From a bacterium (GTDB lineage Bacteria; UBP15; UBA6099; JAJRTR01): a stretch of DNA of 64,000 nucleotides. The stretch is taken from positions 36,846-100,845 of the forward strand of contig JAJRTR010000182.1 in NCBI GenBank assembly GCA_024278215.1, written 5' to 3'. Below the pieces are notes generated by a model, which had not been told where the DNA came from, made no database searches, and saw only the letters and a list, made by a program, of their open reading frames with translations. Made by a program: the position numbers and the translations under genes. Of this stretch, positions 25,880-53,221 are shown in pieces; positions within the stretch are counted from its first letter, which is position 1, and every line of letters starts with the position of its first letter.

Positions 25880-26057
25880 GGCAAATTACAAAATTATGTT
25901 CGAAGCGAGGTCGAACGAAATTTTTCATAAGCAAGGCGGAGGTGCAAAATCCCCGCAGGCGTACTCGCCGAGTACGTTGAGGATGATTTTGTGCCGACAA
26001 CGCAGCTATGGGCAATTGCAGTCGACCGCAGCCAAATCATAATTTTGCAATTGGCTC
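25880..26057. repeat. 178-bp inverted-repeat element, copy B
   Basis: This is the same length and layout as the copies at 341 and 32755, in the orientation of 32755. The right end is intact (TTTTGCAATTGGCTC); the left end is degenerate (ATTACAAAATTATG). The interior blocks GGTCGAACGAAA, CGCAGGCGTACT and GTGCCGACAACGCAGCTATG are conserved. Confidence 0.8.
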
Positions 26058-26156
26058 TATTGTAAAAACAGCATTTATTTATATATCAGGGTTCATTTAT
26101 CACAGTTTTTTGACGAAAACTAATATAAGAAAGCGTCAGAGAAAACGGTATTGGAC

Positions 26157-32022: not shown

Positions 32023-32754
32023 AAGACGAGGACGCGGAAAAAATCATTAAATGAAAAATTGACATTCGTCTACGCGCCCGGCGCAACCGCAGCCCTGCCC
32101 GGAATGCCCGACAGAGCGCCCGGCTCTCTGCGTGCCGACTGGAACGGCTCCGCTCTGCTCGCGCGCTACTACGGCAGCCGGCACGGCTGGGACTACTCGA
32201 TACAGGGCGGTAAAATCTATGGCGGCTACCACTACGGCGGCGGCCTTGTCGGCGAGGTCGGCCCTTACCAGCTTCGCGTCGAAGCGTCACTTTTCCTTGC
32301 GGACGACAGCCCCGCCCTGCCCTACCCTCTCACGGGCAATCTGTTCGACGACTCGACAACTGCTGTCTTCGGCATCGGCAGATACTATAAATCTTCGCTC
32401 GACCTCGAAGTCGAATATCTCTACAACGGAGCAGGCGACCCGGACGATTACTACACCGCATATCTGCGCCGGGCTTATGGCGGCTCGCTCAGCCTCGGGC
32501 GGCAAATTATAGGCGTGACGGCAACTTACGAATTTTCGCCGCTGATCAACGGTCGTCTCGCTGCTCTGCACTCGCTTTCCGACCAGTCGGCACAACTTCA
32601 GCCGGTTATCATCCGCTCGCTTACCGACAACTCGGATGCCGTCTTCGGTGCCACGCTGGATTTCGGACACCGCCCGGCGGCGGACCCGATTACCGGCATA
32701 CGCCTGCGCAGCGAATTCGGCACTTATCCGAACTATTTCTTTTCACAATATAAA
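32023..32754 (+). pseudogene. C-terminal fragment of an outer-membrane beta-barrel protein
   Basis: From about 32059 the frame encodes about 230 residues of alternating aromatic strands with Gly/Tyr turns: SALLARYYGSRHGWDYSIQG, KIYGGYHYGGGLVGEVGPYQ, LDLEVEYLYNGAGDPDDYYT. There is no signal peptide; a TAA stop sits at 32020-32022, just upstream. The 3' end runs straight into the 178-bp element at 32755, which supplies the last codons EPIAKLCS and the stop. The gene therefore looks truncated at both ends. The family cannot be named; a porin-like barrel is inferred. Confidence 0.6.
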
Positions 32755-32932
32755 GAGCCAATTGCAAAATTATGTTCGTAGCGAGGTCGAGCGAAATTGT
32801 TCAGAGCAAGGCGGAGGTGTAAAATCCTCGCAGGCGTACTTGTAGAGTACGTCGAGGACGATTTTGCGCCGACAACGCAGCTATGGACAATAGCAGCCGA
32901 CCGCAGCAGAATCATAATTTTGCAATTGGCTC
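32755..32932. repeat. 178-bp inverted-repeat element, copy C
   Basis: This intact copy has ends GAGCCAATTGCAAAA and TTTTGCAATTGGCTC. Its reverse complement matches copy A at 341-518 over the full length with only a handful of differences. It interrupts the end of the beta-barrel remnant. Confidence 0.88.
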
Positions 32933-33022
32933 TAAAGTCTATTTCTGAGATTTTTTTTCTGAAACCGCACCGCTTCTTATGTGCGCGTACCGGCGCGCTA
33001 CCCCGGATTTCTCGCGATTCCG

Positions 33023-35826: not shown

Positions 35827-35892
35827 GCCAATTGCAAAATCCTGGTTCGAGTGCGGTCGGCTGCAATTGTCAACAGCTGCGTTGTCGGCACA
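35827..35892. repeat. 178-bp element, truncated copy E
   Basis: GCCAATTGCAAAAT, GTGCGGTCGGCTGCAATTGT and AGCTGCGTTGTCGGC match the left third of the 178-bp element. The rest of the gap up to 36121 holds no gene. Confidence 0.65.
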
Positions 35893-41672: not shown

Positions 41673-41912
41673 GAGCCAATTGCAAAATGGGGGGTATGTA
41701 CTTGACTCAACTTATCACAACCCATTGTATGTCGGCTATTGTCCGAACCGCAACATCTTGAGTCCGGTTGAGTGATGTGCATACCCACCTGCAAAATTAT
41801 GTTCGTAGCGAGGTCGAACGAAATTGTTCAGAGCAAGGCGGAGGTGCAAAATCCTCGCAGGCGTACTTGTAGAGTAGTACCGACAACGCAGCTAACCCGC
41901 ATTTCTTTGTGA
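41673..41912. repeat. 178-bp element, copy D, interrupted and 3'-deleted
   Basis: It begins GAGCCAATTGCAAAAT at 41673, is interrupted by the 101-bp insert 41689-41789, resumes as GCAAAATTATGTTCGTAGCG, and loses an internal block after GTACTTGTAGAGTA before CCGACAACGCAGCT. The right terminal repeat is missing. Confidence 0.8.
41689..41789. mobile_element. 101-bp nested inverted-repeat insert with 8-bp target duplication
   Basis: The insert starts GGGGGGTATGTACTTGACTC and ends GAGTGATGTGCATACCCACC, so its ends are inverted repeats with a few mismatches. TGCAAAAT stands directly before it (41681-41688) and directly after it (41790-41797), as a target-site duplication would. It has no coding capacity. 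Confidence 0.7.
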
Positions 41913-42978: not shown

Positions 42979-43383
42979 ATGGGAGAGTATTACGCGATAG
43001 TTCACAGGAAACGCATCATGGACGATTTCGGGTTTGTCGCTATCGGCTCGTTCGTCGTGGACCTCGCGCGTCGGGGCGTTATCTTTGGATACAACGACAA
43101 GTACCCGGAGCAACGCGACCACATGGTCGACGTTTTCTCCCGGTTGCGGGAGGAGCAATGGACTTACGACTGCTGCCTCGATTACTGGAGATTTCAGGGC
43201 GGCTACACCGAGTCATATACCGAGCCGCAAATTATCGAGGCGTCCTGCCTTGAGGAGGCCGCGCGGATTATTACCGAACGGGTGGACGGCGAGTGGCGGT
43301 CCTATTGGAACGAAGTGAAAGAAAAAATGAAACGGGACGGCGTTCTCGTTTATGACGAGGGACAATTTAATGGCGAAAAGTAA
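42979..43383 (+). CDS. hypothetical protein upstream of hsdM
   Basis: This 134-residue protein (MGEYYAIVHRKRIMDDFG, DLARRGVIFGYNDKYPEQRD, VDGEWRSYWNEVKEKM) has a good ribosome site, CGGAGAGAACAGGT. No known domain is visible. Its end overlaps the hsdM start by 14 bases, so it is translated with the RM operon and may be an accessory or an anti-restriction factor; this is inference. Confidence 0.6.
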   Translation: MGEYYAIVHRKRIMDDFGFVAIGSFVVDLARRGVIFGYNDKYPEQRDHMVDVFSRLREEQWTYDCCLDYWRFQGGYTESYTEPQIIEASCLEEAARIITERVDGEWRSYWNEVKEKMKRDGVLVYDEGQFNGEK

Positions 43384-44944
43384 AAACAAAACACTCGACG
43401 TGTCGGCGTTGGAGACTTGGTTGTGGGATGCGGCTTGCGTTCTCCGGGGAGCGACGGACGCGCCCAAGTACAAGGACTATATTCTCCCGCTTATTTTCTT
43501 AAAACGGCTCTCGGACGTTTTCGACGACGAGGTCGCGGGGCTCTCCGAGGAGTTCGGGAGCGAGGCGAACGCGCTCAAGCTCGTGGAGCAGGACCACAAG
43601 CTCGTCCGGTTCTATCTCCCGGAGGACTCGCGTTGGCCGGAAATCGCGAAACGCTCCGCCGCCGGGCTGGGCGAGTTCCTCACGGACGCCGTCCGGGGCG
43701 CGTCACGCGAAAACCCGAAACTCGCCGGGGTCGTGGACGTTACGGATTTTAACGCTACGACCGCCGGGCAAAGGATTATCGACGACGACCGGCTCCATGC
43801 CCTCGTACAAAAACTTAACGAGTACCGCCTCGGCATCAACGACGTGGAGCCGGATATCCTTGGGAGAGCATACGAGTACCTGCTTCGGAAATTCGCGGAG
43901 GGCTCCGGGAAAAGCGCGGGAGAGTTCTACACGCCCCGGGAGGTCGGGGTACTCATGGCGCGTATCCTCGACCCTGAACCCGGACAGACGGTTTATGACC
44001 CGTGTTGCGGCTCCGGTGGACTCCTTATCAAGGCCCACCTCCGGCTTGTCGAAAAAAAGGGCAAACAAAAGAACGGGAGCCGACGCCTCCCCGCGTCCGT
44101 GGCCCCGCTCAAGCTCTACGGACAGGAATACTACGGCGGCACGTTCGCCATGGCCCGCATGAACGCCTTTATTCACGATATGGAGGCCGAAATCGCGCTC
44201 GGCGACACGATGAACGGCCCGGCATTTACCGAGGCCGACGGTGGGCTCCGAGCATTCGATATTGTCACGGCCAACCCCATGTGGAACCAGAAATTCACCG
44301 CGTCCGTGTACGAGAACGACGCCTACGACCGTTTCACCCGGGGCATACCGCCCACGTCCTCGGCGGACTGGGGCTGGATACAGCACATGTTCAAGTCACT
44401 CGGGGACGCCGGGAAAATGGCGGTGGTCCTCGACACCGGGGCCGTGGCCCGTGGCAGCGGCAATCAGGGCGCGAACAAGGAACGGGATATACGGAAAAAG
44501 TTCGTGGACGACGACCTCGTCGAGGCGGTCTATCTCCTCCCGGAAAACATGTTCTACAACACCACCGCGCCGGGTATCGTCCTCGTGGTAAACAAAAACA
44601 AAAAGCACCCCGGAGAGATACTCCTCGTGAACGCCACGGCACAATTCTCCAAAGGCCGCCCGAAAAACTTCATGGAGGACTCCCACGTCGAGGCGGCGGC
44701 GGACGTCTATCTCAAATGGGAGGCCGTCGAGGGGCTGTCGGCGATTATCACGAAAGACGAAGCGGCCCGGAACGACTACAACCTCTCCCCGAGCCGATAT
44801 ATCTCGACCGGCGCGGAGACGGAGGTCCTCCCTCTCGATGAGGCCGTCCTTCTTCTCCGGCAGGCCGAGGAGGAACGGGCGGAGGCGGACGAGAAATTGA
44901 AAGGTATTTTGACCACACTGGGATTTAATAACGCTAATGGCTAA
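43370..44944 (+). CDS. hsdM: type I restriction-modification DNA methyltransferase subunit
   Basis: This 524-residue protein has the N-terminal helical HsdM domain (about 1-150, ETWLWDAACVLRGATDAPKY) and the N6-adenine methylase domain. Its SAM motif I is VYDPCCGSGGLLIKA and its catalytic motif IV is TANPMW, a variant of the usual NPPF/Y. GAGEFYTPREV-like sequence (SAGEFYTPREVGVL) marks the family. It methylates adenines in the target site with HsdS and is needed for restriction with HsdR. The ATG at 43370 (MAKSKNKTL) is preferred over an upstream in-frame start. It overlaps hsdS by 8 bases. Confidence 0.93.
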   Translation: MAKSKNKTLDVSALETWLWDAACVLRGATDAPKYKDYILPLIFLKRLSDVFDDEVAGLSEEFGSEANALKLVEQDHKLVRFYLPEDSRWPEIAKRSAAGLGEFLTDAVRGASRENPKLAGVVDVTDFNATTAGQRIIDDDRLHALVQKLNEYRLGINDVEPDILGRAYEYLLRKFAEGSGKSAGEFYTPREVGVLMARILDPEPGQTVYDPCCGSGGLLIKAHLRLVEKKGKQKNGSRRLPASVAPLKLYGQEYYGGTFAMARMNAFIHDMEAEIALGDTMNGPAFTEADGGLRAFDIVTANPMWNQKFTASVYENDAYDRFTRGIPPTSSADWGWIQHMFKSLGDAGKMAVVLDTGAVARGSGNQGANKERDIRKKFVDDDLVEAVYLLPENMFYNTTAPGIVLVVNKNKKHPGEILLVNATAQFSKGRPKNFMEDSHVEAAADVYLKWEAVEGLSAIITKDEAARNDYNLSPSRYISTGAETEVLPLDEAVLLLRQAEEERAEADEKLKGILTTLGFNNANG

Positions 44945-46268
44945 AAAAATGAGAAAACTAAATGCTGATACAGAGGGGTTTTGGACTTTCGACAAAGACA
45001 CCCTCCCGGAAACATGGGCCGTAAATTGTATTGGCTCGTTAGCCGAGACCATGTACGGAGGGGGAACGCCTTCTACAAAAAATGCGGAGTATTGGGGAGG
45101 AGATATTCCTTGGACAACCACCGCAATAATTCACCCGGACGATATTTTCCTTGACCGCTATCAAAGGAAAATCACCAAGTTAGGGCTCGAAAAATCTTCG
45201 TCTAAAATTGCTCCTCATGGTAGCGTATTAATCGGGACACGAGTTGGCGTCGGAAAAGCTGTAGTAACGACTTTCGATATTGCTATTAATCAAGACCTTA
45301 CCGTCTTGTGTCCTAACGATAGAGCCGTCCCGGAGTATATAGTCTTATCGTTAAAATCTCCAAATCTGCTGAAATGGTTTGAAGAAAACAAACGAGGAAC
45401 AACCATAAAAGGGGTTACGAGGGACGACGTAGCTAAATTGGTTATTCCCCTCCCCCCTCTCCCGGAGCAAAAAGCGATAGCGGGGGTATTGAGGGCGGTA
45501 CAGGAGGCGAAAGAGGCGACGGAGGGGGTAATCGCGGCGGCGCGGCAGCTCCAGGCGAGCCTCATGCGACACCTCTTTACCTACGGCCCCGTCCCGTTCG
45601 ACCAGGCCGACCGGGTCAACCTCAAGGAAACCGAAATCGGCCCGGTCCCGCAGGAGTGGGATATTAAGCCTATTGGAGATTGCTCTTTGCTGTCACAGTA
45701 CGGAATTTCAATGCGCGGTAATCTTAAAGGGCAATACCCCATACTTCGCATGAATAACCTACAGGAGGGTAAAGTTACAACCGAAAATTTACAATATGTC
45801 GATTTAGACGACGATACTTTTAAGAAATTCCGAGTGGAAACGGGTGATATACTTTTTAACCGTACAAATAGTTTTGAGTTAGTAGGCAAAACCTCGGTTT
45901 TCGAGAATGAGGGGGATTATATTTTTGCCTCATATCTTGTGAGGGTTCAATTAGACGAAAGCCGTCTTTTACCTCGTTTGCTTAACTACTATATGAACAT
46001 GGGGAGCACACAAACCCGCCTTAAATCCCTTGCCTCAAGAGCAGTGAGTCAATCGAACATTAACGCCACAAAGCTAAAGGGGTTCCTCGTTCCGGTTCCA
46101 CCAATAGAGATACAAAAGCGAATAGTAGAACAAATAAAAGCCGTTGACGATAAGATTACGGTCGAAAAGAATAGGCTGTCTATATTGATATCACTTTTCG
46201 ACTCCCTTCTCCACAACCTTATGACGGGACAAGTTCGCGTCCCGGTCGGAGAGGAGGCGGGCGCGTGA
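44937..46268 (+). CDS. hsdS: type I restriction-modification specificity subunit
   Basis: This 443-residue protein has two target recognition domains, each followed by a conserved helical spacer. The first half ends with PLPPLPEQKAIAGVLRAVQE and the second with PVPPIEIQKRIVEQIKAVDD, both typical HsdS boundaries. TRD1 opens with YGGGTPSTKNAEYWGGDIPW. HsdS reads the bipartite DNA target of the complex. The gene overlaps the end of hsdM (ATGGCTAA). Its TGA stop sits inside a GTGA that copies the start of hsdR (see the repeat at 46265). Confidence 0.92.
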   Translation: MAKKMRKLNADTEGFWTFDKDTLPETWAVNCIGSLAETMYGGGTPSTKNAEYWGGDIPWTTTAIIHPDDIFLDRYQRKITKLGLEKSSSKIAPHGSVLIGTRVGVGKAVVTTFDIAINQDLTVLCPNDRAVPEYIVLSLKSPNLLKWFEENKRGTTIKGVTRDDVAKLVIPLPPLPEQKAIAGVLRAVQEAKEATEGVIAAARQLQASLMRHLFTYGPVPFDQADRVNLKETEIGPVPQEWDIKPIGDCSLLSQYGISMRGNLKGQYPILRMNNLQEGKVTTENLQYVDLDDDTFKKFRVETGDILFNRTNSFELVGKTSVFENEGDYIFASYLVRVQLDESRLLPRLLNYYMNMGSTQTRLKSLASRAVSQSNINATKLKGFLVPVPPIEIQKRIVEQIKAVDDKITVEKNRLSILISLFDSLLHNLMTGQVRVPVGEEAGA

Positions 46269-46300
46269 CGGCGGGCGGCGAAAGGGGCGCGGGAGAACCG
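46265..46300. repeat. direct repeat of the hsdR start, left copy
   Basis: GTGACGGCGGGCGGCGA is identical to the first 17 bases of hsdR at 46967-46983, and the match continues imperfectly through GGCGCGG and AGAACC. The two copies flank the MNT/HEPN cassette, so the original hsdS-TGA/GTG-hsdR junction appears to have been duplicated or left behind at insertion. Confidence 0.8.
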
Positions 46301-46345
46301 GCGGTTTTTGTGGTAAACTGAAAACAAATATGCGGAGGCGGAAAA

Positions 46346-46639
46346 ATGGGCCGCGAGGAGATATTGAAAATCCTGAAACAGAACTATGACGGCATCGCCG
46401 GTCGGTTCGGGGTTACGTCGCTGGCGGTGTTCGGTTCCGCCGCCCGGGACGAGGCCGGGGCGGACAGCGATATCGACGTGCTGGTGGATTTCCCGGAGCC
46501 GCCCACGTTCGACCGGTACATGGACCTCAAGTTTCACCTTGAGGACCTGCTCGGCAGGCGCGTGGACCTTGTGACGCGGCGCGGGCTGCGCGAGCGCGTG
46601 CGCCCGTTCGTCGAAAAGGAGGCCGTGTATGTCGCGTGA
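46346..46639 (+). CDS. mntA: MNT-type nucleotidyltransferase antitoxin
   Basis: This 97-residue protein is a minimal nucleotidyltransferase. It has the signature VFGSAARDEAGADSDIDVLV, with G-S, the spacing of nine residues and the catalytic D-x-D. In HEPN/MNT pairs this protein modifies the HEPN toxin, typically by adding AMP to its tyrosine, which blocks the toxin. GCGGAGGCGG precedes the ATG. It overlaps the HEPN gene by 11 bases. It is located inside the type I RM operon between hsdS and hsdR. Confidence 0.88.
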   Translation: MGREEILKILKQNYDGIAGRFGVTSLAVFGSAARDEAGADSDIDVLVDFPEPPTFDRYMDLKFHLEDLLGRRVDLVTRRGLRERVRPFVEKEAVYVA

Positions 46640-46970
46640 CTGGACCATGTACCTCGATGATATGATTGCCTGTTGCCGCAGGGTGATAGAGTATACGTGC
46701 GGCGCGGACCGGGAGTCTTTTTTCTCCGGCGGCATGGCATACGACGCGACGCTCAGGAACCTCGAAGTGCTCGGGGAGGCGGCAAAGAAGGTGCCGGAGG
46801 ATGTGCGTCGGGCGCACCCGGATGTGCAGTGGCGCAAAATCGCGGGTCTGCGCGATGTGCTCGCGCACGATTATTTCGGGCTCGAAGAGGAAACCCTGTG
46901 GGACGTGGTGGCAAACAAAGTCCCCGCGCTCCTGCCCGCGCTTGAGAAAATCCGGGAGGAAACCCCGTGA
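46629..46970 (+). CDS. hepT: HEPN-domain (DUF86/HepT) toxin ribonuclease
   Basis: This 113-residue protein is a helical HEPN/DUF86 domain. It carries the ribonuclease motif R-DVLA-H-D-Y in GLRDVLAHDYFGLEE, including the tyrosine known as the modification site in HepT. GGMAYDATLRNLEVLGEAAK is the conserved second helix. The toxin probably cleaves tRNA or mRNA when not modified by its MNT partner. Its stop overlaps the GTG of hsdR (GTGA). PrrC-type anticodon nucleases also sit between hsdS and hsdR and have HEPN-like domains, so it may guard the RM complex; this is inference. Confidence 0.88.
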   Translation: MSRDWTMYLDDMIACCRRVIEYTCGADRESFFSGGMAYDATLRNLEVLGEAAKKVPEDVRRAHPDVQWRKIAGLRDVLAHDYFGLEEETLWDVVANKVPALLPALEKIREETP

Positions 46971-49867
46971 CGGCGGGCGGCGAGAAAGGCGCGGTGCAGA
47001 ACCCGTTCGTCCGGTACGCGACCGAGGCGGGCTGGACGTATCTATCCCCTGCGGAGGCTCTTGAATTACGCAAGGGTGGCATTACAAGCCCCCTTTTGGA
47101 CGTGGTAGTCGTGGACCAGTTACAGCGGCTTAACCCGGGGATAGTGGACGCGGGCAAGGCCGAGGAGACGGCTCGAAAAATCGCCCGGGTGCGGCCCAAT
47201 ATCGAGGGGAACCTCGACGCATGGGAGTACATGAAAGGGCTCAAGACCGTTTTCGTACCGGAGGAAAAGAGGGAGCGCAATATCCGGCTCCTCGACCCGG
47301 TCGACGCGGGCGCGAACAAGTTCCACGTTACGGACGAGTTCACTTTCTCTAACGGCAGCCCTCCGGATATCCGGGCGGATATCGTTTTTTTTGTGAATGG
47401 GGTCCCGGTTATTATTGTGGAAACAAAAGGCGCGAAAAAATTAGAGGGTATTGCCGACGCGCTGGACGATATACGTTACTATCACCGCAAGGGTCCAGAG
47501 TTCCTCGCTCTAAATCAAATACATACTCTTACGCACCTCGTACAGTTTTATTACGGGGCGACCTGGGTCCTTTCCCGGAAGTGGCTTTTTAACTGGCGGG
47601 AGGAGTCCGTTAAGGACGGCGATTTCGAGACGCTATGTAAAACTTTTGTGGCTCCCCGGCGCGTTCTCCGGGTCATTACTGACTTTATCCTATTCACACG
47701 AAAGGACGACGAGTTATCAAAGGTCGTGCTCCGGCCCCACCAGATGAGAGCGGCAGACCGATGTTTAGGCCGGGCGCGGGACGGGGAAAAGACACGAGCC
47801 CTTATTTGGCATACACAGGGGTCCGGCAAGACGTACACAATGATAACCACGGCGAAACGGATACTTGAGGACAAGGACCTCGAAAACCCGACCGTTATCA
47901 TGCTCGTGGACCGTAACGAGTTGGAGGAGCAGTTATTCAAAAACCTCGAACAGGTCGGGTTCGGAAGCGTAGCTATTGCCGAGAGTAAAGAAAACCTCAA
48001 ACAACTCCTCAAGAGCGACCGGCGCGGGCTTATCGTTTCCATGATACACAAGTTCGACAGGATACCGGCGGAGATAAACGATAGGGAGAACATATACGTA
48101 CTCGTGGACGAGGCGCACCGGACGACCGGGGGCGACCTCGGCAATTACCTCATGGGGGCGTTGCCGAATGCTACTTATATGGGCTTTACCGGGACGCCTA
48201 TCGACCGGACGGAACACGGCAAGGGTACGTTTAAGACTTTCGGCTTACAGGATGAACGGGGCTATCTTGATAAATACTCAATCAAAGAGTCCATAGCCGA
48301 CGGGACAACAGTCCCGATACACTACGCGCTGGCCCCGAACGAGCTGCGGGTCGAGCGGGAGACGCTTGAACGAGAGTTTTTATCTCTTGCCGACGCCGAG
48401 GGCATAAGCGATTTTGAGGAACTAAATAAAGTCCTCGAAAAGGCCGTCACGTTAAGGAACATGCTCAAGAACGAGGACCGTATCGACAAAGTCGCCCGGT
48501 TCGTTGCGGAGCATTTCCGGACTACGGTCGAACCCATGGGCTATAAGGCGTTCCTCGTAACCGTAGACCGGGAGGCGTGCTGCCTTTTCAAAGAGGCTCT
48601 CGATAAATACCTCTCTCCGGAATACTCTGAGGTCGTGATAAGCGGAGGCGGAAAAAAGGACGGGGAACTCCTCCAGAAATACAAACTATCAGAGGACAAG
48701 GAAAAGGATATAAGAAAACAGTTCCGGAAACCGAACGAGTTACCGAAAATGCTCATAGTCACGGAAAAGCTCCTTACCGGGTTCGACGCGCCGGTCCTTT
48801 ACTGTATGTACCTCGACAAGCCCATGAGGGACCACGTTCTCTTACAGGCGATAGCGCGGGTAAACAGGCCATACGAGGACGACGAGGGGCGAAACAAGCC
48901 CGCCGGATTCGTTCTCGATTTCGTGGGGATATTTGAAAAACTCGAAAAGGCTCTCGCGTTCGACTCGGAGGACGTGAGCGGAGTCGTTGAGGGCGTGGAC
49001 CTCCTCAAGGAACTTTTCGAGAGCATGATAAAAGACGCCCGGGCCGAGTACCTCCCGGTTATCAAGGGTAAAAAAGGTGACACACAGGTCGAGGCCGTGC
49101 TCGAACATTTCCGGGACAGGGACACGCGGCATGATTACTACAAGTTCTTTAAGGAACTCCAAGACGTATATGAGATACTCTCGCCGGACGCCTACCTCCG
49201 TCCGTTCCTCCCGGACTACGGACTCTTGACGGATATATACTACACGCTCCGGGCGAACTACGACCGGGGTATCCCTATAGACCGGGAGTTCCAGAGAAAA
49301 ACAGCCCGGCTCGTACAGGAACATACGAGCTCCGGAGCGATACAGGCCCCGGACGAGGGCCATATTATAGACGAGAACGCGCTCCGGAAAATCGCCGGAG
49401 AGGACACGCCCGGGACGGTTAAGGTTTTCAATCTCTTAAAAGCAATACACGGGCTCGTAGAACATAACTCGAATAAAGAGCCATACCTCATAAACATAGG
49501 CGAACGTGCAGAGGAGATAGCGCAAGCGTTCGAGGCGCGGCAAAAGACGACCCAACAGGCGCTGGAAGAACTCGCCCGGCTTGTGGCGGAACTGGAGGAG
49601 GCCAAAGGCGAGCGGGCGGCGACGGGACTCTCACCGGAAGCGTTCGCGGTCTACTGGTTCCTCAAAAAAGAGGGAGCGGGCGACCCCATGAAAGTAGCCG
49701 AGGACGCGGAGAAAACTTTCAAAGAGTACCCGCATTGGAACGTAAGCGAACGGCAGGAACAGGACGTAAGGCGGAGTTTGTATAAGTCGTTGATAGACTC
49801 CGGGGTCGAGGCCGTGGTCGAGGTAGGTAGCAAACTCCTTAAAATGTTAAAGAGGGCCTCGCAATGA
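46967..49867 (+). CDS. hsdR: type I restriction endonuclease subunit R
   Basis: This 966-residue protein has the N-terminal nuclease domain (PD-(D/E)xK type: ADIVFFVNGVPVIIVETKGA), then the SF2 translocase with Walker A in WHTQGSGKTYTM, the DEAH box in VLVDEAHRTTGG, FTGTPIDR and the distal QAIARVNRPY motif. It translocates DNA past the recognition complex and cuts far from the site. The GTG start overlaps the stop of the HEPN gene, with GGGAGGAAAC upstream. Its last bases overlap the YgjP-like gene start (ATGA). Length is normal for the family. Confidence 0.93.
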   Translation: MTAGGEKGAVQNPFVRYATEAGWTYLSPAEALELRKGGITSPLLDVVVVDQLQRLNPGIVDAGKAEETARKIARVRPNIEGNLDAWEYMKGLKTVFVPEEKRERNIRLLDPVDAGANKFHVTDEFTFSNGSPPDIRADIVFFVNGVPVIIVETKGAKKLEGIADALDDIRYYHRKGPEFLALNQIHTLTHLVQFYYGATWVLSRKWLFNWREESVKDGDFETLCKTFVAPRRVLRVITDFILFTRKDDELSKVVLRPHQMRAADRCLGRARDGEKTRALIWHTQGSGKTYTMITTAKRILEDKDLENPTVIMLVDRNELEEQLFKNLEQVGFGSVAIAESKENLKQLLKSDRRGLIVSMIHKFDRIPAEINDRENIYVLVDEAHRTTGGDLGNYLMGALPNATYMGFTGTPIDRTEHGKGTFKTFGLQDERGYLDKYSIKESIADGTTVPIHYALAPNELRVERETLEREFLSLADAEGISDFEELNKVLEKAVTLRNMLKNEDRIDKVARFVAEHFRTTVEPMGYKAFLVTVDREACCLFKEALDKYLSPEYSEVVISGGGKKDGELLQKYKLSEDKEKDIRKQFRKPNELPKMLIVTEKLLTGFDAPVLYCMYLDKPMRDHVLLQAIARVNRPYEDDEGRNKPAGFVLDFVGIFEKLEKALAFDSEDVSGVVEGVDLLKELFESMIKDARAEYLPVIKGKKGDTQVEAVLEHFRDRDTRHDYYKFFKELQDVYEILSPDAYLRPFLPDYGLLTDIYYTLRANYDRGIPIDREFQRKTARLVQEHTSSGAIQAPDEGHIIDENALRKIAGEDTPGTVKVFNLLKAIHGLVEHNSNKEPYLINIGERAEEIAQAFEARQKTTQQALEELARLVAELEEAKGERAATGLSPEAFAVYWFLKKEGAGDPMKVAEDAEKTFKEYPHWNVSERQEQDVRRSLYKSLIDSGVEAVVEVGSKLLKMLKRASQ

Positions 49868-50178
49868 AAGCGACACCGCCGCCGGAGTGGGAACCATTGG
49901 AGGAGTCCGTCCCCCGGGACATATTCAAAGCCGAGGTCCGGGCGTGGGCAAAACGGATAGGCGTCGAGCCGAAAGAGATACACGTCCGGGAAATGACGAA
50001 AAAATGGGGAAGCGCGTCCACGACGGGGCGCGTCACGTTCGCCGCCGACCTCCTCCGGCAACATAGCGAGTTCCGCAAACGTGTAATCGTCGAGGAGCTG
50101 TTGCACCTCAAGGTCCCGAATCACGGGAAATTATTCAAGTCGCTCCTCCGGGCGTATTTGAAACGGAAAAACCCTTAA
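49864..50178 (+). CDS. YgjP/M48-like metallopeptidase-type protein linked to hsdR
   Basis: This 104-residue protein matches the C-terminal part of YgjP/DUF45-type proteins: MTKKWGSASTTGRVTFAADL, then VIVEELLHLKVPNHGKLFK. In most members the helix carries H-E-L-x-H; here it reads E-E-L-L-H, so the first histidine is a glutamate, while the later His of PNH is kept. Such short proteins often follow hsdR in type I loci, with unknown role. It overlaps hsdR by 4 bases. Confidence 0.8.
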   Translation: MKATPPPEWEPLEESVPRDIFKAEVRAWAKRIGVEPKEIHVREMTKKWGSASTTGRVTFAADLLRQHSEFRKRVIVEELLHLKVPNHGKLFKSLLRAYLKRKNP

Positions 50179-50370: not shown

Positions 50371-50838
50371 ATGACATACGATTGGATAATCGACGGCGAG
50401 ATTGGCGTCGGGTCGGCTCCGGTTAATCGGGAGGACGCGGAAGCTCTCCGGGCGGCGGGTTTTCGAGCCATTCTCGATATGACGGAATCCCACGAGCCCG
50501 GATACCGGGGAGGAGTCGACGGGGTAGAATACGAAAACATACCGACGCCGGATTTAGCGGAGGACGGCGCGGGGTATATTCTCCCGGACGAGGTTATTAT
50601 CGAGGCGGTTAGATACATACGGGAGAGCGTGGCGGCGGGCCGTCCGGTCTATGTTCATTGTCGGTACGGCGCGAACCGGAGTTCGATAATCGTAACGGCA
50701 TACATGTGCGCCGTTCGGAAAATCCGGCTCTACGAAACAATACACACAATAAAAGAGCGGCACCCGGAAGCGAACCCGAACTACAAACAGGTCGCCGCAT
50801 TGTGCCGATTTCTCGAAAAGAGAGGAGCCGAGGTATGA
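50371..50838 (+). CDS. dual-specificity protein phosphatase-like protein
   Basis: This 155-residue protein is a compact DSP/PTP-fold enzyme. It has the P-loop VYVHCRYGANRSSIIVTAYM with the C-x5-R signature and a probable general-acid Asp in PTPDLAEDG. It may dephosphorylate phospho-Tyr/Ser, or another phosphate ester. GGATAGGAGGCGGGAA gives a strong ribosome site. It overlaps the DraG-like gene by 4 bases (ATGA), so the pair is translationally coupled. No kinase is adjacent. Confidence 0.85.
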   Translation: MTYDWIIDGEIGVGSAPVNREDAEALRAAGFRAILDMTESHEPGYRGGVDGVEYENIPTPDLAEDGAGYILPDEVIIEAVRYIRESVAAGRPVYVHCRYGANRSSIIVTAYMCAVRKIRLYETIHTIKERHPEANPNYKQVAALCRFLEKRGAEV

Positions 50839-51803
50839 GCGGGTTATGTCGGGGAGACAGAATAGCCGGGGCGATATTCGGAACGGCGGTCGGGGACGCC
50901 CTCGGTTATCCGGTCGAGTTCTCCCATGGGGTCACGGTAACGGACCTCCTACCTCCACACCACTACTCGGACGATACGCAAATGAGTATTGCTACGGTCG
51001 AGGGGGGCCTTCAAACCGACCCCTCCCCTAAAAAAGGCCTCCCGAGGTTGGAGGAGAATATCGCGGCGGAACTCGCAAAGTGGAACGAGTCACAGGATAG
51101 ACCCGAAAACAGGAGGGCTCCCGGTAATACATGCCTCTCCTCGACGGCCCGCCTCCGGAAAGGAGTAACGTGGAGGGAGTCGGGAGTCTACTCCGCCGGT
51201 TGCGGCACAACTATGAGAATGGGAATACTCGGACTCCTCCTTACCGAGGACGAAATTATCGAGAGAGGCCCAGGTATCGCGGCTATGACGCACACTGACC
51301 CGAGAGCCATAGCCGGAGGCGTCGGCTCGGCTCTCACGGTAAAGTACATTTCGGAGGACGTGGAAAACCTCGAAATTATTAAAAAGCTCACGGCGGTATT
51401 TTCGGACGGCACTCACTCCGGCCTCCAATGTCCGGAAATGGTGAGGCTCCTCTCCCGGGTCGAGGATAGTACGGGGCGGGACATAGGGCGTGAGGCCGGG
51501 ACGGAATGGTATCTCTCGCCTCCGGCGTGGATAGTGGATATGCTCGGAGAGGGGTGGGTAGCGGACGAGTGTCTCGCCCTCGCGCTGTTCCTCGCATTTC
51601 AAGCCGGGGACGACTTCAAAGCCGGAGTGCTCTCGGCGGCGAATCTCGACCGCTCGGATAAAGACTCGGTAGGCGCGGTCGTGGGTTGTATGTTAGGAAC
51701 TCGCCTTGGGGCCGAGGCAATCCCGGAGGCGTGGAGGAACAATATAGAAAACGGAAAGCTACTCGACCGGGTCGCAACGGACGCGACCGCGTGGCGCATG
51801 TAA
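50835..51803 (+). CDS. ADP-ribosylglycohydrolase (DraG family)
   Basis: This 322-residue protein is an ADP-ribosylglycohydrolase. It opens with RIAGAIFGTAVGDALGYPVE, has the metal site YSDDTQMS, the TTMRMG segment and the C-terminal metal-binding SDKDSVGAVVGCMLG (usually DxDT). Such enzymes remove ADP-ribose from proteins, nucleic acids or small molecules. It follows the phosphatase directly. No ADP-ribosyltransferase toxin is present in the window, so its target is either host, phage or foreign. A role in counteracting ADP-ribosylating toxins, or in signalling, is inference. Confidence 0.87.
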   Translation: MSGLCRGDRIAGAIFGTAVGDALGYPVEFSHGVTVTDLLPPHHYSDDTQMSIATVEGGLQTDPSPKKGLPRLEENIAAELAKWNESQDRPENRRAPGNTCLSSTARLRKGVTWRESGVYSAGCGTTMRMGILGLLLTEDEIIERGPGIAAMTHTDPRAIAGGVGSALTVKYISEDVENLEIIKKLTAVFSDGTHSGLQCPEMVRLLSRVEDSTGRDIGREAGTEWYLSPPAWIVDMLGEGWVADECLALALFLAFQAGDDFKAGVLSAANLDRSDKDSVGAVVGCMLGTRLGAEAIPEAWRNNIENGKLLDRVATDATAWRM

Positions 51804-52924: not shown

Positions 52925-53221
52925 ATGGACGAACGAACTAAACGAAAAAGACTAAGCCGGTTTATGAAAATAGCGGCAATCGCCGGGCCGGATGCGACAG
53001 CGCAAATATGCAACGAGCTATCGGGCGACCGCGTATATATCCCGAAAGCGGACGTATTTACAAGGGAGATACGTAACGAGAAAATCGCGGAGGAGTGGGA
53101 GCGCGGCGTCCCGGCGTTTGACCTCTCCCGGAAATACAACCTTACCCCACGGCGCATATATCAAATCGTGAACGGGAACGGCAACACCGGGAGGATGAGT
53201 TCAGCGAGTCTGGGACTATAG
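52925..53221 (+). CDS. Mor-like transcription activator family protein
   Basis: This 98-residue protein fits the Mor/C activator family of Mu-like phages: GDRVYIPKADVFTREIRNEK, then IAEEWERGVPAFDLSRKYNL and TPRRIYQIV as the helix-turn-helix. Family members activate middle or late transcription in phages and are also found in mobile elements. Here it may activate the genes that follow. The ATG at 52925 lacks a strong ribosome site. Confidence 0.75.
   Translation: MDERTKRKRLSRFMKIAAIAGPDATAQICNELSGDRVYIPKADVFTREIRNEKIAEEWERGVPAFDLSRKYNLTPRRIYQIVNGNGNTGRMSSASLGL

Follow-up and report, generated by a model that had tools for sequence, protein, structure and literature searches.

A MntA/HepT toxin-antitoxin pair between hsdS and hsdR, probably captured by a type I restriction operon, is flanked by two copies of the hsdR start

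INTRODUCTION

In prr loci, the gene for the anticodon nuclease PrrC lies between hsdS and hsdR. Genes embedded at this junction are not a novelty; published cases are PrrC, the rlo genes, and DarTG2. The linkage of HEPN proteins to restriction was described in 2013, in work that places PrrC, a HEPN nuclease, in the hsdMSR neighborhood and proposes for HEPN genes in restriction loci generally that they act as guards (PMC3710099). This agrees with a sequence-only reading of the present locus, which had called PrrC HEPN-like and placed its gene among hsd genes. For DarTG2, the authors term the hsdS-hsdR site a potential recombination hotspot (PMC12255303).

In the type VII HepT/MntA systems, the RNase toxin HepT is blocked through adenylylation, by MntA, of the tyrosine in its RX4HXY motif (PMC7641770). 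The open-access full text available to us reports no antiphage activity of MntA/HepT. Here, we describe a MntA/HepT pair between hsdS and hsdR in a bacterial contig, of which a stretch of 64,000 nucleotides (the window) was analyzed, and we compare it with related restriction loci and with stand-alone pairs.

RESULTS

A complete type I restriction operon is present in the window. Pfam searches identified hsdM, hsdS, and hsdR, which together make up a type I restriction-modification system, with mntA and hepT between hsdS and hsdR and a YgjP-type peptidase gene at the end (Table 1). An upstream-extended open reading frame of hsdM begins at 43352, and the YgjP-like gene comes after hsdR in nearly all relatives. 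The hepT start overlaps mntA, and the hepT stop overlaps the GTG start of hsdR as GTGA. A promoter search found no promoter for the pair that stands out from chance. Directly downstream of the operon (50371-51803) are a dual-specificity phosphatase-like gene and an ADP-ribosylglycohydrolase gene, and a Mor-type transcription activator (PF08765, 6.6e-14) is encoded at 52925-53221, a hint that a mobile element, Mu-like or of another kind, may be close by. A ∼180-bp MITE-like family, whose terminal inverted repeats (AGAGCCAATTGCAAAATTATG) are imperfect, also has members in the window at 341-518, 25881-26059, 32754-32933, 35827-35892, and 41790-41876. Across the genome, this family has at least 40 copies at 95 to 99% identity (40 scored of 470 candidates, so that there may be many more).

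Table 1. Coordinates in the window of the restriction operon, the embedded pair, and the two copies of the hsdR start
Feature	Position	Strand	Evidence
hsdM, type I N6-adenine methyltransferase	43376..44944	+	Pfam N6_Mtase 8.7e-88, HsdM_N 1.7e-24
hsdS, specificity subunit	44937..46268	+	Pfam Methylase_S 7.8e-42
AGGAGG, likely Shine-Dalgarno of former hsdR start, within hsdS 3' end	46252..46257	+	7 nt before GTG 46265
Putative vestige of hsdR start (left copy)	46264..46292	+	18 bases identical, 90% over 29
mntA, MNT nucleotidyltransferase antitoxin, 97 aa	46346..46639	+	Pfam NTP_transf_2 1.3e-17; PADLOC PDC-S09 6e-31; motif GSX10DXD
hepT, HEPN RNase toxin, 113 aa	46629..46970	+	Pfam HepT-like 6.2e-25; motif RX4HXY
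GGAGG, likely Shine-Dalgarno of hsdR, within hepT 3' end	46955..46959	+	Sequence
Right copy, functional hsdR start	46966..46994	+	Sequence, BLAST
hsdR, type I restriction/translocase subunit, 966 aa	46967..49867	+	Pfam SWI2_SNF2 1.1e-61, HSDR_N 2.2e-25; TIGR00348 above cut-off
YgjP/M48-type metallopeptidase-like gene	49864..50178	+	Pfam YgjP-like 3.2e-18

The neighboring mntA and hepT products match NTP_transf_2 (PF01909) and HepT-like (PF01934), respectively, both above the Pfam gathering scores, as in class I HepT/MntA. The GSX10DXD motif is intact in MntA (GSAARDEAGADSDID), as is RX4HXY in HepT (RDVLAHDY). Both proteins missed the NCBIfam equivalog cut-offs for MntA_antitoxin and HepT_toxin (46.8 and 34.8 bits versus 60). 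Judged by domains and motifs, the pair is a divergent member of class I HepT/MntA that falls outside the narrow NCBIfam equivalog subfamily. Six PADLOC models of PDC-S09 also match MntA (best PDLC04906, 6.1e-31). HepT carries the HepT-like domain only, with no ABC ATPase domain found by Pfam. Because the published catalytic motifs are kept in both proteins, autonomous control of HepT by MntA appears most likely.

An exact second copy of the 17 bases that open hsdR (GTGACGGCGGGCGGCGA) lies at 46265-46281, the repeat at the end of hsdS that the sequence-only reading had noticed. Counting the preceding C, the exact match covers 18 bases (46264-46281 and 46966-46983), and the TGA stop of hsdS falls within the left copy. 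BLAST aligns the two copies at 90% identity over 29 bases, and weaker similarity goes on to ∼46314, in keeping with the imperfect extension that had been described. The gene coordinates place the toxin-antitoxin genes between the copies, as had also been claimed. A chance match was excluded by shuffling and by a whole-genome search, which settled whether the flanks match beyond chance, one of the points on which the earlier reading had staked its claim. A local alignment of both flanks scores 29, a value reached by none of 2,000 dinucleotide shuffles, and the flank-match score was reached in 1 of 300 trials of a broader test and 0 of 400 of a third. The left copy is the only second match to the hsdR-start stretch in the 4.5-Mb genome (BLAST, E value of 7.6e-4).

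Both junctions, at the hsdS stop and at the hepT stop, have the same GTGA overlap that was reported from the sequence. Each GTG is preceded 7 nucleotides upstream by a Shine-Dalgarno sequence, one within hsdS and the other within hepT, so that the left copy resembles an hsdR start that was once functional. It translates as M-T-A-G-G-E-R-G-A and then decays; this fits the HsdR start in related loci, M[TS]xGGER..VQNP. The frame that it opens encodes an 18-residue peptide and ends with a TGA at 46319-46321, 24 bases before mntA. These sequence features mark the left copy as an hsdR start that has decayed.

We fetched 80 loci from many phyla with HsdR proteins 51 to 69% identical to that of the window and recorded what lies between hsdS and hsdR in the resulting 81. 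The comparison with loci lacking the pair, which had been suggested as a check, found hsdS directly against hsdR in 27 of the 81, including L004, L005, L010, L012, and L017. A survey for HEPN/MNT genes at this position, proposed at the same time, was also positive, with the pair just before hsdR in 14 of the 81 loci (only the MNT gene was recognized in L047). Other genes or sequence occupied the junction in 31, and the remaining 9 ran off the contig. Besides the pair, genes for Mrr-type nucleases, GmrSD, Schlafen/AlbA proteins, HicBA toxin-antitoxin pairs, a 23S IVP protein, and a KilA-N protein occur there. On the basis of these varied occupants, the hsdS-hsdR junction of these loci is, by gene content, a slot for defense-type genes. 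L052 and L062 have the MNT gene at the hsdM-hsdS junction instead, as do, with weak matches, L016 and L022. In another locus (L139, from a genome of the same phylum as L020), a MNT/HEPN pair precedes a distant hsdR whose product is only 25% identical, and the pairing is therefore not limited to the HsdR clade of the window.

In an HsdR tree, the window groups with L004, whose junction is empty, and with L008, L002, and L003; none of these carries the pair. The MntA/HepT tree joins the window pair, at 100% support, to a sister pair found in two genomes of the same order (MntA, 76 to 77% identity; HepT, 73% identity). That pair is stand-alone in both genomes (G004 and G005), with no hsd genes nearby; a D-lyxose isomerase gene lies near it in both and a Fic gene in L096. 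One of the two stand-alone hepT copies is frameshifted (L097, G005:C107). Pairs linked to hsdR are interspersed in the tree with pairs not next to hsd genes, on deep nodes that are weakly supported; most other contexts were checked over ∼1.5 kb with the Hsd proteins of the window as queries. These interspersed pairs and the stand-alone sister led us to reject the idea that the pair is an old, permanent component of this restriction family. Among the seven genomes from this order, no other close hsdR and no empty site in a close strain turned up.

At the DNA level, the similarity with the stand-alone hepT extends to the last codons of the gene, where the native stop is absent and the hsdR GTGA supplies it. 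Between the two pairs, nonsynonymous differences amount to 0.16 to 0.18 per site and synonymous differences to 0.71 to 0.77, which is saturated; this points to purifying selection on mntA and hepT. Since the scar is far less diverged than the two pairs, the insertion would be much younger than their split. These comparisons give good support to insertion of the pair at an hsdS/hsdR junction that already existed: the pair is missing from the nearest HsdR relatives, hsdS abuts hsdR in 27 of 81 loci, and the sister pair is stand-alone. Together with two similar scars elsewhere, this upholds the view that the original junction was hsdS/hsdR. Insertion by a transposon was judged unlikely: the insert contains no transposase, the scars differ in length (∼30 to 50, 90, and 77 bases), and the pair is not bordered by the MITE-like repeats.

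Of 35 occupied junctions examined, those of the window, L056, L050, and L076 have flanking repeats that exceed chance. The 37-bp repeat of L076 appears to be a simple repeat, rich in CTCTGTG and without relation to hsdS or hsdR, and was left out of the scar count. In the L056 locus (Acetothermia; L056:1-1768), ∼90 bases of the hsdR start lie upstream of a HicBA pair and of a MNT remnant with an internal deletion; a Mrr N-terminal gene is also present, and an intact hsdR follows. The vestige is identical at 79 of 89 positions to hsdR of L019 and at 77 of 89 to the hsdR of L056 itself, and it keeps a common Arg where the latter has Cys. These sequence differences fit an old allele left behind without proving it. 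The order hsdS-HicBA-hsdR occurs in the relatives L011/L152 and L157, so a toxin-antitoxin-hsdR unit exists as a possible donor. L050 is the mirror image (1900-2700): a 77-base copy of the hsdS end lies to the right of a HicBA pair and is followed by hsdR. Copies matching this hsdS end are also present in L080 and L049, with further genes (MNT/HEPN, Mrr) behind them. When longer hsdR-start vestiges were sought with a profile, that of L056 alone was recovered; the copy in the window is too short for the profile.

DISCUSSION

We consider it probable (about 0.72) that a class I MntA/HepT pair was captured by a type I restriction operon, in which it would serve as a backup abortive defense and as an addiction lock on the operon. 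In the ancestor, as the vestige and the relatives suggest, hsdS and hsdR would have been joined through the GTGA overlap. A mntA-hepT cassette from the bacterium's own wider lineage would then have landed at this junction, leaving the old hsdR start after hsdS as a scar of ∼30 to 50 bases, with the intact start now after hepT, whose stop codon the hsdR GTGA would supply. The duplication could have arisen through repair at insertion, or the cassette and hsdR could have arrived together by recombination anchored one-sidedly in hsdR. Homology-facilitated illegitimate recombination would yield such products (PMC3240628), and for the scar in the window this route and a repair duplication are equally possible. 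By the biochemistry of the family, MntA would silence the RNase by adenylylating the RX4HXY tyrosine of HepT. Presumed cotranscription in one common operon would couple the pair to restriction, so that, if the operon were lost or shut down or a phage took over, HepT would stay unmodified and growth would halt. Such a halt is what would make the pair both a backup defense and an addiction lock.

The pair may instead be a simple passenger at a tolerated landing place, tied to restriction only by its transcript and persisting through its own addiction. We regard this as possible though clearly less probable than capture for defense. Many unrelated genes occur at the junction, the hsdR-linked pairs are scattered in the tree among pairs away from hsd genes, and the hepT-hsdR junction has generic overlap signals only, all of which a passenger would explain. 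Many of the recognized occupants are, however, toxin-antitoxin or nuclease genes, which suggests selection for defense, and DarTG2 in the same slot belongs to an island shown to be antiphage (PMC12255303). A different doubt concerns the left copy, which could be a selected leader, a second ribosome-binding and start element after hsdS that couples translation into mntA. Its preserved Shine-Dalgarno sequence and GTG and its 18-codon frame ending shortly before mntA are consistent with such a role, but most other occupied loci have no such element, the ∼90-base copy in L056 is frameshifted, and the piece copied in L050 is the hsdS end. We therefore consider a leader improbable.

The sequence-only reading also raised a PrrC-like guard, in which HsdMSR would bind HepT or sense its state and keep it inactive, so that phage antirestriction proteins disabling HsdR would free the RNase as a second line of defense. 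The precedent of PrrC, a HEPN nuclease in the hsdMSR neighborhood (PMC3710099), and the recurrence of the pair before hsdR in related loci speak for it. HsdR and toxin distances are also correlated across the hsdR-linked loci (Mantel r = 0.56, 0 of 10,000), although this may reflect only common descent within groups. Yet HepT comes with a dedicated enzymatic antitoxin, whose adenylyltransferase motif is intact, and lacks an ABC ATPase domain. The sister of the pair is found apart from restriction genes, and relatives have unrelated genes (HicBA, Mrr, GmrSD, Schlafen-like, and others) at this junction. These observations go against HsdMSR holding the toxin inactive and make the guard unlikely. 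Slightly less likely still is a two-key version, in which MntA silences HepT while HsdMSR also controls MntA or HepT and phage antirestriction proteins acting on HsdR unleash the RNase.

Under the favored reading, capture of the pair by the operon, the locus clearly illustrates the embedding of a toxin-antitoxin pair in a restriction operon, with a scar that can still be read and a sister pair that stands alone in the same order. The scar probably shows how one junction gene got in. Whatever the insertion mechanism, both flanking genes must remain whole, and a broken copy of one can therefore stay behind. The mirror-image scars, of the hsdR start in the window and L056 and of the hsdS end in L050, point to a single general route for the gain and swapping of defense genes at the hsdS-hsdR junction, and such scars could serve to date and orient embedding events. 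We found no scar evidence at hsdS-hsdR junctions in the open-access full text available to us, and this kind of evidence for how genes become embedded may be new. The pair itself is of a known kind, given the genes already published between hsdS and hsdR and the match to PDC-S09.

Among described systems, HepT/MntA of Shewanella oneidensis (SO_3166/SO_3165; PMC7641770, PMC4621449) shares with the window pair PF01934 and PF01909, the motifs RX4HXY and GSX10DXD, and the two-gene unit, whereas the window pair lies inside a type I restriction operon and scores below the NCBIfam equivalog cut-offs. PDC-S09, a PADLOC putative defense candidate from the guilt-by-embedding series, is likewise embedded in a defense system; it is listed as a single gene, while the window MntA is clearly paired with HepT. 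The Campylobacter rlo genes (2005 work, cited in PMC5183652) resemble the window in being extra open reading frames between hsdR and hsdS or hsdS and hsdM, but their gene content differs, and the passage on them reports no scar. PrrC, like the window hepT, is a HEPN RNase gene in the hsdMSR neighborhood (PMC3710099). The window hepT has the position expected of PrrC/RloC, between hsdS and hsdR, without their fusion of an ABC ATPase to a C-terminal HEPN domain, and whereas the restriction complex itself keeps PrrC silent, HepT is paired with a distinct antitoxin enzyme. DarTG2 in EPEC differs in its toxin chemistry, DNA ADP-ribosylation, and in having its own repressor, RptR, but it is a toxin-antitoxin pair at the same type I operon junction as the pair in the window (PMC12255303).
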